Shown in pieces: positions 36,722 to 40,002 of a stretch of DNA of 64,000 nucleotides. The stretch is from positions 2,579,381 to 2,643,380 of the forward strand of contig BPKC01000001.1 in assembly GCA_026004935.1 (NCBI GenBank), in the 5' to 3' direction. Every line of letters begins with the position of its first letter. Position 1 is the first letter of the stretch. The notes under the pieces are model-generated. The model was not told the DNA's origin and made no database searches. It saw only the letters and a list, made by a program, of their open reading frames with translations. Made by a program: the position numbers and the translations under genes. Source of the stretch: Rhodothalassiaceae bacterium. Its GTDB lineage: Bacteria > Pseudomonadota > Alphaproteobacteria > Sphingomonadales > Rhodothalassiaceae.

Positions 36722-37816
36722 ATGACGGCTGATGGAGGCTTCACGACGGCGCGTGCGGCGGATGGCGCGCCGGCGCAATCCCGGCGCGAGATCGTCCAGC
36801 GCTATTACGGCGAGACGCTGAAGACCAGCGCGGATCTCAAGACGAGCGCCTGCTGCCCGGCCGATGCCATCCCGGCCCATGTGCGGGCGCTTCTCGCCAA
36901 TGTCCACGAGGAGGTCCAGGCCCGCTTCTACGGCTGCGGCTCGCCGATCCCGCCGCTCGTCGACGGCTGCACGGTGCTCGATCTCGGCTGCGGCACCGGG
37001 CGCGATTCCTTCCTGCTCTCGCAGCTGGTGGGCGCGCAAGGCCGGGTCATCGGCATCGACATGACGGATGCCCAGCTTCAGGTCGCCAACCACTATGTCG
37101 CCTGGCACATGGACCGCTTCGGCTACCGCACGCCGAACGTCCGCTTCGTCAAGGGCGTGATCGAGGATCTCGCCGCCGCCGGCATCGCCGACGAGAGCGT
37201 CGACGTCGTCGTCTCCAACTGCGTGATCAATCTCTCCGCCGACAAGAGGGCGGTGTTCCGCGAGATCTTCCGGGTGCTGAAACCCGGCGGCGAGCTCCTT
37301 TTCGCCGACATCTTCGCAAGCCGCCGGCTGCCGCCGGAGCTGGCCGAGGATCCGGTGCTCGTGGGCGAGTGCCTGGGCGGTGCCCTCTACATCGAGGACT
37401 TCCGGCGCCTGCTGCTCGATCTGGGCATCCGGGACTACCGGGTGGCAAGCGCCCGCCCGGTCACCATCGAGGACGAGGAGATCGCGGCCCGCCTCGGCCC
37501 CGTCTCCTTCTTCTCCATGACGATCCGCGCCTTCAAGCTGGATCTGGAGGACCGCTGCGAGGACTACGGCCAGGTCGCCGTCTACCGCGGCACGATCCCG
37601 CACCACGAGCCGGCCTTCGCGCTCGACGACCATCATCTTTTCGAGGCGGGGCGCGCGCTGCCCGTCTGCGGCAACACCGCGGCGATGCTGGCCGAGACGC
37701 GCTACGGCCCGCATTTCACGGTGATCGGGGACAGGAGCCGGCATTTCGGCCTCTTCCCCTGCGGCCCGGAGCGCCAGCCGGAGCCCGGCACCGGGACGCC
37801 GGGCGGATGCTGCTGA
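36722..37816 (+). CDS. arsM: Arsenite S-adenosylmethionine methyltransferase (ArsM)
   Basis: A 364-residue methyltransferase that should methylate trivalent arsenic. The N-terminal YYGETLKTSADLKTSACC is the ArsM lead motif, the SAM loop is LDLGCGTGRDS, and Cys72 (FYGCGSP), Cys167 (VVSNCVINL) and Cys217 (GECLGGALY) match the three thiol ligands known in algal ArsM (Cys72, Cys174, Cys224). It also has a C-terminal domain and ends GGCC. ATG 36722 follows GGAGAGTCCGGCG. The next gene overlaps it by 10 bp, and both neighbours downstream are arsenosugar-associated glycosyltransferase types. Confidence 0.88.
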   Translation: MTADGGFTTARAADGAPAQSRREIVQRYYGETLKTSADLKTSACCPADAIPAHVRALLANVHEEVQARFYGCGSPIPPLVDGCTVLDLGCGTGRDSFLLSQLVGAQGRVIGIDMTDAQLQVANHYVAWHMDRFGYRTPNVRFVKGVIEDLAAAGIADESVDVVVSNCVINLSADKRAVFREIFRVLKPGGELLFADIFASRRLPPELAEDPVLVGECLGGALYIEDFRRLLLDLGIRDYRVASARPVTIEDEEIAARLGPVSFFSMTIRAFKLDLEDRCEDYGQVAVYRGTIPHHEPAFALDDHHLFEAGRALPVCGNTAAMLAETRYGPHFTVIGDRSRHFGLFPCGPERQPEPGTGTPGGCC

Positions 37817-38505
37817 CGCGGCCCGCAGACCCGACCCCTTCAGACGCGGGCACGACCCTTCCCGCGGAAGCCGTCGCCATCACGGTCGTGGTGCCCGTCG
37901 GCCCGGGCGATGGCCCCGCCTTCGAGGCGCTGGCGCGCCGGCTGGGCGGGCTCGCCCCCGGCCTTGCCGTGATCCGCGCGGCCGAAGGCACCCGGGCGCG
38001 CAGCCTCAATGCCGGCGCGCGCGCGGCGCGCACCCCCTTCCTGTGGTTCCTTCATGCGGATTGCGCGGTGGAGGCGCGCCATCTCGAGGCCCTTGCCGCG
38101 GCGCTTCGGCGCGCTCCGGATGCCGTGCATTTCTTCGATCTGGCCTTTGTCGACGACGGGCCGCGCGCGGTGCATCTCAACGCCCGGGGCGGCAATCTGC
38201 GCGCGCGGCTCCTCCGCCTTCCCTTCGGCGACCAGGGGCTGGCCATGCACCGCGACACCTGGGAGCGGCTCGGCGGCTTTCCCGAAGACCTGCCCCATGG
38301 CGAGGATCACGTCTTCGTCTGGCGCGCGCATCTCGAAGGCGTGCCGGTCCGCCGCATTCCGCTGCCGCTGCCGACCAGCGCGCGGGCCTATCGCGAGGCC
38401 GGATGGCTGCGGCTCACCCTCCTGCGCCAGTGGCTGTGGCTGCGCCAGGCGGCTCCCTTCGCGCTGCGTCTCGCCGCCCGGCGGCTCGCGGGCCGGCGGG
38501 GCTGA
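37807..38505 (+). CDS. Glycosyltransferase, TIGR04283 type (arsenosugar-associated)
   Basis: A 232-residue GT2-like glycosyltransferase. The pattern TVVVPVGPGDG, GTRARSLNAGARAARTPFLWFLHADC, FGDQGLAMHRDTWERLGGFP and EDHVFVWRAHLEG fits the TIGR04283 family, recorded next to radical SAM and ArsM genes. The start overlaps arsM by 10 bp, so translation is coupled. Family assignment is from memory and should be confirmed by HMM. Confidence 0.82.
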   Translation: MLLTRPADPTPSDAGTTLPAEAVAITVVVPVGPGDGPAFEALARRLGGLAPGLAVIRAAEGTRARSLNAGARAARTPFLWFLHADCAVEARHLEALAAALRRAPDAVHFFDLAFVDDGPRAVHLNARGGNLRARLLRLPFGDQGLAMHRDTWERLGGFPEDLPHGEDHVFVWRAHLEGVPVRRIPLPLPTSARAYREAGWLRLTLLRQWLWLRQAAPFALRLAARRLAGRRG

Positions 38506-38515
38506 GGGCCGATCG

Positions 38516-39316
38516 ATGTCCCGCGGCGGCGCCATTGCGATCTTCGCAAGAACGCCCGGCCTCGGGCCGGTCAAGACCCGGCTTGCCGCCGACATCGGCG
38601 CGCAGCAGGCGCGCGCATTCCACCGCCTCGCCATCGCGGCCACCGCCGAGACCGTGCGCCGCTTCGTCACGGCCCACCCCGCCTGGACCGCCCGCTTCGC
38701 GGTGGCCGAGGCCGAGGGCGTCGGCGACGCCTTCTGGCGGCCTTTCCCGGCGCGGCACACGGGCGGCGGCGATCTTGCGACGCGGCTGTGGCGGGTGTCC
38801 GAGGCGCTGCTTGCGGTCCACGGCCGGGCGATTCTGATCGGCGCGGACAGCCCGCAGATCATCCCGGCGGATCTGGAGGCGGCGGCGGCCGCGCTCGAGC
38901 GTCACGCCTGGGTGCTGGGCCCGGCCGCCGACGGCGGCTTCTGGTGCTGCGGCCTTGCGCGGCCGCTACCGCGCGCCGTCTGGCGGGCCGCACCCTTCGA
39001 CCGGCACGCGGACGGCTCATCGGCCCGCGTCGCGGCCGCCCTGATCGATGCGGCCCGGGCCGCGGGCTTTCCGCCGCCGGCGCGCCTGCGCCGGCTTCAT
39101 GACGTCGACACGGCGGACGATCTCGACCGGCTTGCAGGCGAGTGGCCGGATCCGGCCGCCGAAAGCCCGCAGCAGGCGCGGCTCAAGGCCTGGATCGCCG
39201 CGCTGCGCGCGCGGTCCGCTCCGGCCCGACGCCACGGCCTGCGCGACGGAGTGAAGGCGGCACCGGCCGTCGGCCCCGGACCCTGCGCCTTGTTTCGCGC
39301 CCCGCCGTCGGTTTAG
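38516..39316 (+). CDS. Glycosyltransferase, TIGR04282 / DUF2064 type (arsenosugar-associated)
   Basis: A 266-residue nucleotidyltransferase-like glycosyltransferase. The start IAIFARTPGLGPVKTRLA, the ILIGADSPQI site and the VLGPAADGGFW stretch are typical of TIGR04282/DUF2064. It follows the TIGR04283 gene by 10 bp, forming a three-gene run with arsM. The last 40 residues are Ala/Arg-rich and not part of the family core. Confidence 0.85.
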   Translation: MSRGGAIAIFARTPGLGPVKTRLAADIGAQQARAFHRLAIAATAETVRRFVTAHPAWTARFAVAEAEGVGDAFWRPFPARHTGGGDLATRLWRVSEALLAVHGRAILIGADSPQIIPADLEAAAAALERHAWVLGPAADGGFWCCGLARPLPRAVWRAAPFDRHADGSSARVAAALIDAARAAGFPPPARLRRLHDVDTADDLDRLAGEWPDPAAESPQQARLKAWIAALRARSAPARRHGLRDGVKAAPAVGPGPCALFRAPPSV

Positions 39317-39330
39317 ATCCGGGTGCGATC

Positions 39331-40002
39331 ATGGGACGGGGAGCGCAATCGGTGGCGACCGGCGAAAGCGGCACGGCATCGAGGCGGCAGCAGCGGGCGC
39401 ACTCGCGCGCCGGCGATCTGCTCCACGCCTTCGCGGAGCTGGCCGAGGCCGCGGACTTCCTCTCTGCCGGGCGGCGCGAGGCGCTGCGCGCCGCGCTCGC
39501 CGGCATCGCCCCCGAAGCGCTCGAGGCGGACTCCGGGCAGGAGACCGGGCGCTGGCGGACGCCGCTTGCGCGCGCCGAGGCCGCGCTTTCCGCCACGGCC
39601 GAGCGGCTGGCCGCGCTTGCGAGCGAGGCGAGCGGCGTGCCCATCGACATCACGGGATATCTGGCGAGCGAGGCGAAGAACCGCGTCGTCCGCAGCGTCC
39701 TCGAGGCGGCGGACGATGCGGGGCTGCTCGCCTATTTCGAGGAGCGCAAGGCCCACGGCGAGCTTGATGCCGACGTGCTGCTGACCTGCGCCCGGCTTGG
39801 CGCCTCGCGCGTCTTCTTCGCCGCGATCGCCGCCGCGGTCGACCTCAAACTCGACGTCGAGATGGTCGCCGCCTTCATCGAGGACGGCGGCCTCGTGCTC
39901 CTCGAGCGCATGCTGCTGCGCGCCGACATCTCCGAAACCGCCCGCGAGGCGATTCTCGAGGCCTATCGCGAGGCCGAGGTCCGAGACCCGACGCGGAGCT
40001 GA
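39331..40002 (+). CDS. Hypothetical helical protein, possible DUF2336 relative
   Basis: A 223-residue Ala/Glu/Arg-rich protein without signal peptide or membrane segment. The C-terminal part, with [26 protein letters not shown] followed by an [12 protein letters not shown] element, resembles the repeating pattern of alphaproteobacterial DUF2336 proteins, but this is weak. Function unknown. It starts 14 bp after the TIGR04282 gene and may be the fourth member of that operon, though no functional link is known. Confidence 0.55.

Follow-up and report, generated by a model that had tools for sequence, protein, structure and literature searches.

Arsenosugars are a main organic arsenic form in marine food chains, and the step that ties the arsenic to the sugar is performed by a radical S-adenosylmethionine (SAM) enzyme, ArsS in the known loci. 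Which enzyme could take this step is the question raised by a short gene group in a 64,000-nt stretch of the genome of a Rhodothalassiaceae bacterium (assembly GCA_026004935.1, contig BPKC01000001.1, positions 2,579,381-2,643,380 of the forward strand; hereafter the window, meaning this whole stretch), where an ArsM-type methyltransferase and two arsenosugar-type glycosyltransferases are encoded side by side and ArsS is absent. The sequence-only reading had described this arrangement correctly and had left two options, an ArsS encoded elsewhere in the genome or a shorter pathway. We consider that this genome probably does have a radical SAM step, carried out by another radical SAM family to which we give our own label rSAM-A/B, a SPASM/twitch-like family distinct from ArsS; the gene for its member in this genome, rSAM-A, lies 471 kb from ArsM, and in some relatives the corresponding gene lies within the cluster. 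We assign a probability of roughly 0.58 to this view, namely that the arsenosugar-type pathway is split and that rSAM-A takes the place of ArsS in it.

The first gene of the group (P0001, positions 36722-37816, + strand) encodes an ArsM-type As(III) SAM methyltransferase of 364 aa, matched by the NCBIfam model NF008823 (E=4e-54, 183.9 bits) and by the AsSugarArsM model NF038099 (110.3 bits across residues 40-327). It is followed by P0002 (37807-38505, +), a 232 aa TIGR04283-type glycosyltransferase of a short form (E=1.9e-36, 125.7 bits, profile positions 51-208 of 221), and by a 266 aa TIGR04282-type (DUF2064, CofC-like) transferase (38516-39316, +) that matches the full TIGR04282 profile (1-189 of 189; E=8.1e-35, 120.3 bits) as well as PF09837 (71 bits). 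On sequence, the three proteins are clear relatives of the named families and not chance matches, though all score under the curated cut-offs (263 for NF008823, 400 for NF038099, 182 for TIGR04283 and 134 for TIGR04282). Open reading frames read from the DNA and spacings computed from their coordinates bore out the reported 10 bp overlap between the ArsM and TIGR04283-type frames and the 10 bp gap to the TIGR04282-type gene. The translated P0001 likewise carries the reported Cys72, Cys167 and Cys217, the three As(III)-binding cysteines expected of an ArsM, which we equate with the known As(III) ligands; Cys44/45 and a C-terminal Cys-Cys are also present.

In a 40-row tree of TIGR04283-type proteins, from which the row of locus L104 was left out, P0002 sits among 21 rows beyond a branch with SH-aLRT support of 98, together with the glycosyltransferases of the ArsS loci L082 and L083 and those of rSAM-A/B clusters, and 18 of these 21 rows adjoin ArsM, ArsS or rSAM-A/B. 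The sequence-only reading had staked its proposal on the TIGR models; taken strictly the matches fall short, while the arsenic association of the TIGR04283-type clade holds. P0002 lacks an N-terminal VVDGxS-type segment that is present in L034 and L038. The idea that its short form is a degenerate relic was rejected, as the clusters L113 and L141 carry the same short form. Among 29 ArsM rows compared, the closest to P0001 outside its own family group come from the full clusters L104 (60.4%) and L141 (60.1%), and the best cluster relatives of the TIGR04282-type protein are those of L113 (40.9%) and L141 (37.7%).

These data bear on the rival that survives best, although we hold it to be unlikely: that ArsM here is a plain detoxifying methyltransferase, that the two transferases serve a general purpose and that no arsenosugar is made. 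It would account for the sub-threshold scores of both glycosyltransferases, for two genomes of the same family (G006 and G026) that keep the short glycosyltransferase pair without ArsM or rSAM-A, and for the position of the pair among housekeeping-like genes (named by eye) in G020 and G026. It sits poorly with the composition of the P0002 clade, with the overlap of the ArsM and TIGR04283-type frames, and with the congener G031, in which ArsM and the pair are again adjacent.

The genome (two contigs, 2.9 Mb, listed completeness 100) was searched for ArsS with TIGR04167, and nothing genome-wide reached the cut-off of 300 bits, so that an ArsS elsewhere in the genome was rejected as the missing partner. 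With the same model, none of the 99 order genomes had an ArsS over the cut-off, and only two of the 289 class genomes did, both from one genus. The top score in the genome, 61.6 bits, belongs to a radical SAM protein of 314 aa, rSAM-A, which was also matched by an alignment of the A/B family at G000:C1:2144425-2145333. It carries CNIACAHC, the CX3CX2C motif of radical SAM proteins, whose three cysteines are invariant in A1 and A3, and the family has further invariant cysteines at the C-terminal end. Its best NCBIfam match is NF049973, the Rv1681 family (95.3 bits for this A-type protein, 108.4 bits for the B-type protein of L034). No match to DUF3641, which the ArsS of L082 carries C-terminally, was found up to E 0.1. 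An AlphaFold model of the L104 rSAM-A (mean pLDDT 87.2) matched the folds of SkfB (Z 18.2), BlsE (17.9), SuiB (17.8) and MoaA (16.6) in a structure comparison, with Foldseek used in addition, and on this model rSAM-A/B appears to be a SPASM/twitch-like radical SAM family. The ArsS of L082 had no relative by sequence in the PDB at E≤1e-5. The single plasmid match that was found is annotated in its record as 'radical SAM protein'.

We rejected the possibility that the A/B proteins are sequence-drifted ArsS orthologues: hhalign aligned rSAM-A/B with ArsS over the N-terminal radical SAM domain alone, and ArsS formed a separate group in a tree with A/B proteins (65 of 109 rows, with L004_out left out), the proportions of which are biased because rows were chosen partly for cluster linkage. 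By eye the C-terminal cysteines of ArsS and A/B are alike. We draw no kinship from this, because their spacing is also SPASM/twitch-like, and because the fold matches are to SkfB, BlsE, SuiB and MoaA. Judged by sequence, rSAM-A is by membership not ArsS; by context it is in the place of ArsS.

That context comes from the relatives, some of which have a weak ArsS match, ArsM and a TIGR04283-type gene in one locus. We fetched 22 ArsM neighbourhoods, which with the window made 23, and sought partner genes by tblastn; rSAM-A/B was found in 14, a TIGR04283-type gene (GT283) in 15 and a TIGR04282-type gene (GT282) in 16. The radical SAM gene is of the B type in L034 (310 aa), L035-L037, L041 and L047-L050, and of the A type, that of our genome, in L029, L039, L042, L044 and L045. 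L034-L037 form a tight operon GT282-GT283-ArsM-rSAM, and L047-L049 are arranged as ArsM-...-GT282-rSAM-PNP-GT283, where PNP denotes a purine nucleoside phosphorylase-type gene; L041 has ArsM and the radical SAM gene alone and L050 ends at a contig edge. Six ArsM loci (L028, L032, L033, L040, L043 and L046) had neither rSAM-A/B nor glycosyltransferase genes, three of them (L032, L043 and L046) being short contigs. Pfam matches among the neighbours in ArsM loci included VTT, pyridine nucleotide-disulphide oxidoreductase (PyrRed), DUF547, a low-molecular-weight phosphatase-type protein (LMWPc; the type of ArsC), PHO4, PNP_UDP_1, a sigma-70-like factor and an epimerase.

The canonical ArsS loci are built from the same parts. 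L194, on a Cupriavidus plasmid, reads PHO4-ArsM-ArsS-PyrRed-VTT-GT283-PNP-DUF547, and L199 and L200 read GT282-VTT-PyrRed-ArsS-PNP-GT283. The fullest examples with the other family are L113 (rSAM-A-LMWPc-GT282-GT283-PNP-ArsM-PyrRed-VTT), L104 (rSAM-A-GT282-GT283-PNP-ArsM), L197 (rSAM-A-ArsM-VTT-PyrRed-GT282-GT283) and L198 (ArsM-GT282-rSAM-B-GT283). The rSAM-A/B clusters and the ArsS loci share a gene set in which the radical SAM gene alone is exchanged.

Scanning named genomes with the A/B alignment returned at least 590 relatives; we analysed the 80 top-scoring ones, mostly from Alpha- and Gammaproteobacteria. Searched by tblastn, the flanks of these 80 loci held GT282 in 18, GT283 in 17, PNP in 13, PyrRed in 13 and ArsM in 5. 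In Alteriqipengyuania abyssalis (L147), ArsM and rSAM-A share a locus. An unsupervised count of shared neighbours over 81 loci (the 80 and L193) gave GT282 in 17, GT283 in 15, PyrRed in 14, PNP in 13, ApaG in 11, MetZ in 9 and ArsM in 5, with one ABC-ATPase-like cluster also common (15 of 81 loci); where a neighbour had no Pfam match, as with ApaG, MetZ, FolE and TrkH, it was named by eye. The chance expectation for such neighbours, assuming one gene copy per 3.5 Mb, is 0.46, against 15-17 observed. In a FastTree tree of 106 radical SAM proteins, with rows not chosen for cluster linkage and three non-family rows left out, our protein falls in a 21-tip clade (support 93) in which 14 of 17 named loci are linked to PNP, a glycosyltransferase or ArsM, compared with 10 of 64 elsewhere. 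This clade includes all 13 PNP-bearing named loci, and inside it the rows of our family are sister to linked rows with weak support.

Two neighbourhoods deserve mention in their own right. In L193, on plasmid p546-1 of Roseomonas haemaphysalidis, rSAM-A lies amid TIGR04282, DUF547, a second radical SAM gene, a phosphonate-type ABC transporter and a metallophosphoesterase; the transporter set could perhaps import methylarsenicals. In our own family, a glycerophosphodiester phosphodiesterase gene (PF03009) adjoins rSAM-A in all five carrier loci (L030 and L065-L068; at L030:8106-9545, - strand).

The two genes also occur in the same genomes. With a search profile built from an alignment of ten A/B proteins, rSAM-A/B was found in 38 of the 99 order genomes (weakest best match E 3e-62), and ArsM in 32 (NF008823, E≤1e-22). 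All 32 ArsM genomes have rSAM-A/B, compared with 6 of the 67 without ArsM (Fisher p=2.8e-20, inflated by kinship among genomes like the class-level value below). By family, the proportions with and without ArsM are 5/5 and 0/2 in our own, 1/1 and 2/3 in f4, 3/3 and 0/24 in f5, 6/6 and 1/19 in f6, 1/1 and 0/1 in f7, and 16/16 and 3/9 in f8. Among the matches listed, a TIGR04283-type protein scoring at least 110 bits, a cut chosen by eye, occurred in 35 of 38 rSAM-A/B genomes and in 5 of 61 others. Across the class, rSAM-A/B was present in 83 of 289 genomes and ArsM in 35 (30 at E<1e-27), a count that may be too low because at most eight candidates per genome were scored in these searches. At the stricter cut, 25 of 30 ArsM genomes carried rSAM-A/B against 58 of 259 others (p=6e-11). 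A second ArsM-like type was observed in eight f8 genomes (G015, G021, G044, G047, G059, G083, G088 and G091), all with rSAM-A/B; in most of the eight it consists of frames of about 380-400 aa that match NF008823 in two pieces.

The route that we infer, from its substrate through each chemical step to its final product, is modelled on what is described for known producers. According to the passages available from the respective papers, a radical SAM enzyme performs the arsenic adenosylation of arsenosugar biosynthesis (PMC12159101), SsArsS works together with SsArsM (PMC8552651), and in a proposed algal route a nucleosidase removes adenine ahead of the transfer (PMC10456119). ArsM of the window would methylate arsenite to dimethylarsenite, and the distant rSAM-A would add a 5'-deoxyadenosyl group to the arsenic of the latter. 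An enzyme of the methylthioadenosine (MTA) phosphorylase type would then remove adenine, after which the TIGR04282- and TIGR04283-type proteins of the window may activate the arsenic-ribose and pass it to an acceptor.

For the third of these steps we searched the 99 order genomes with the MTA-phosphorylase-like PNP encoded next to a true ArsS. Close homologues (56-60% identity, E≤1.5e-101) were found in five genomes (G056, G062, G074, G080 and G097), in each case directly beside an A/B radical SAM gene, four of which are of type B and one of which (G056) was not typed. The remaining matches, at no more than 49% identity, are housekeeping-like, and in both G070 and G073 a copy of this kind adjoins rSAM-A. 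A dedicated phosphorylase in our genome was rejected as a candidate, the search there giving a housekeeping-like, unlinked copy alone (G000:C1:2486148).

Several observations weigh against the split pathway. Three of them, namely carriers of rSAM-A/B without ArsM, the unlinked position of rSAM-A here and in most class genomes with both genes, and its metZ-apaG-folE-trkH-like neighbourhood, favour, as a second rival that we judge improbable, an unrelated housekeeping role for rSAM-A, with arsenosugar-type clustering limited to some lineages (e.g. those with the B type) and an incomplete pathway here. Besides the N-terminal extent of the hhalign match, the missing dedicated phosphorylase and the glycosyltransferase pairs of G006 and G026, the observations against the split pathway concern the linkage and the frequency of the two genes. 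Of the 32 order genomes that have both ArsM and the radical SAM gene, 14 showed the two together in a fetched neighbourhood; in the class they lay within 20 kb in just three of 25 genomes with both (G019, G213 and G263), the neighbourhoods of G213 and G263 having been fetched because the two genes had already been seen close together, and were unlinked in the other 22. In our own family they were never in one locus (0/5, two on short contigs): they are 471 kb apart in our genome, distant on one contig in G013 and G020, and on different contigs in G031 and G036. Seven loci (L071-L077, from six f4 and f8 genomes; genes named by eye) have rSAM-A in a metZ-apaG-folE-trkH-like neighbourhood without cluster genes, although the L071-L077 genomes G015, G021 and G047 and five other A/B-bearing f8 genomes have a more distant ArsM-like gene elsewhere. 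Among other class loci fetched, rSAM-A stood alone in G176, G290 and G376 and ArsM alone in G124. Finally, rSAM-A/B occurs more often than ArsM: of the 83 class carriers, 58 show no ArsM at E<1e-27 and 56 none at E≤1e-22. An undetected ArsM does not exclude the pathway, because the two genomes with canonical ArsS (G111 and G243), neither of which has A/B, also show no ArsM at the threshold used. Against the housekeeping rival stand the presence of rSAM-A/B in every ArsM genome of the order, including the contrast within our own family (5/5 and 0/2), and the position of our copy inside the cluster-linked clade.

A shorter pathway without a radical SAM step, which would yield glycosylated methylarsenicals and which the sequence-only reading had offered as its second option, fits the window itself, where ArsM and the two transferases stand alone with the radical SAM gene 471 kb off, but is very improbable given rSAM-A/B in all 32 ArsM genomes. 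Equally remote is an arsQML-like alternative, which likewise combines ArsM with a radical SAM gene (PMC8552651, in the passages available) and could draw on the 154-bit match of P0001 to the arsinothricin ArsM model NF040538: the cut-off of that model is 500, ArsL, known to us by description, is given in those passages as 428 aa with three conserved Cys only whereas our 314 aa protein belongs to a family with further invariant cysteines at the C-terminal end, and the nucleoside phosphorylase and glycosyltransferases in the relatives' clusters fit an adenosyl product.

More tentatively, at somewhat less than an even chance, A/B may constitute a second arsenic-adenosylating radical SAM family, ArsS-like in its core alone, and provide the usual arsenosugar-type route in Alphaproteobacteria and part of the Gammaproteobacteria, with ArsS as the exception there; A/B genomes without ArsM would then use imported methylarsenicals or another substrate. 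In the portions of the open literature that our search reached, no ArsS replacement was described, and we do not claim its absence from print. If a second family does perform the step, surveys based on ArsS miss most proteobacterial candidates (83 compared with 2 of the 289 class genomes), and rSAM-A/B would offer a concrete, assayable enzyme for asking who makes arsenosugar-type compounds.

The gene that follows the TIGR04282-type gene after 14 bp (P0004, 39331-40002, +) encodes a helical protein of 223 aa, listed as unknown in the sequence-only reading. It had no NCBIfam or Pfam match up to E 0.01, falling short of PF10098 (DUF2336, cut-off 34.6 bits), and no match in the congener G031 (89% complete). 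Of the 296 genomes searched, 24 besides this one gave weak matches, mostly to frames of about 320-350 aa, and both of the two distant relatives tested matched PF10098 (149.4 and 135.7 bits). No arsenic link was found for it. P0004 was rejected as a member of the cluster; by sequence it is distantly related to DUF2336 proteins and does not seem to be part of the pathway. Elsewhere in the window, with all genes named by eye, a HicA/HicB-like pair (33309-34079, -) has on its two sides an nrdA-like gene at 30474-32387 and an nrdB-like gene located within 33486-35174. The 2 kb of the window with the lowest GC (0.613) contain, downstream of thiC, a RelE/HigB-like gene and an antitoxin-like partner (42406-43150, -). 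A lone lysozyme-like gene, likewise named by eye, is followed by a holin-like gene at 9430-10527 (+).

Three known systems are closest to the one proposed here. With the ArsM/ArsS arsenosugar pathway (SsArsM and SsArsS of Synechocystis; TIGR04167) the window shares ArsM and the TIGR04282- and TIGR04283-type transferases, and the clusters of its relatives share the PNP-type phosphorylase, the pyridine nucleotide-disulphide oxidoreductase, VTT, DUF547 and PHO4; it differs in a radical SAM protein that scores far below the TIGR04167 cut-off, is without DUF3641 and is encoded at an unlinked site. The Rv1681 family (NF049973) provides the best NCBIfam match of this protein, yet the score lies far under the cut-off of 380 and the match spans residues 36-212 of 314 only. 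The arsQML system, as far as the available passages describe it, also joins ArsM to a radical SAM protein, ArsL, that acts on arsenic; ArsL is larger and has fewer conserved cysteines; those passages state that the four genes after arsL are dispensable for the product and mention no phosphorylase or glycosyltransferase set, and the ArsM of our genome falls short of the arsinothricin ArsM model. The split pathway proposed here would resemble the ArsM/ArsS pathway in its gene set and differ from it in its radical SAM enzyme.

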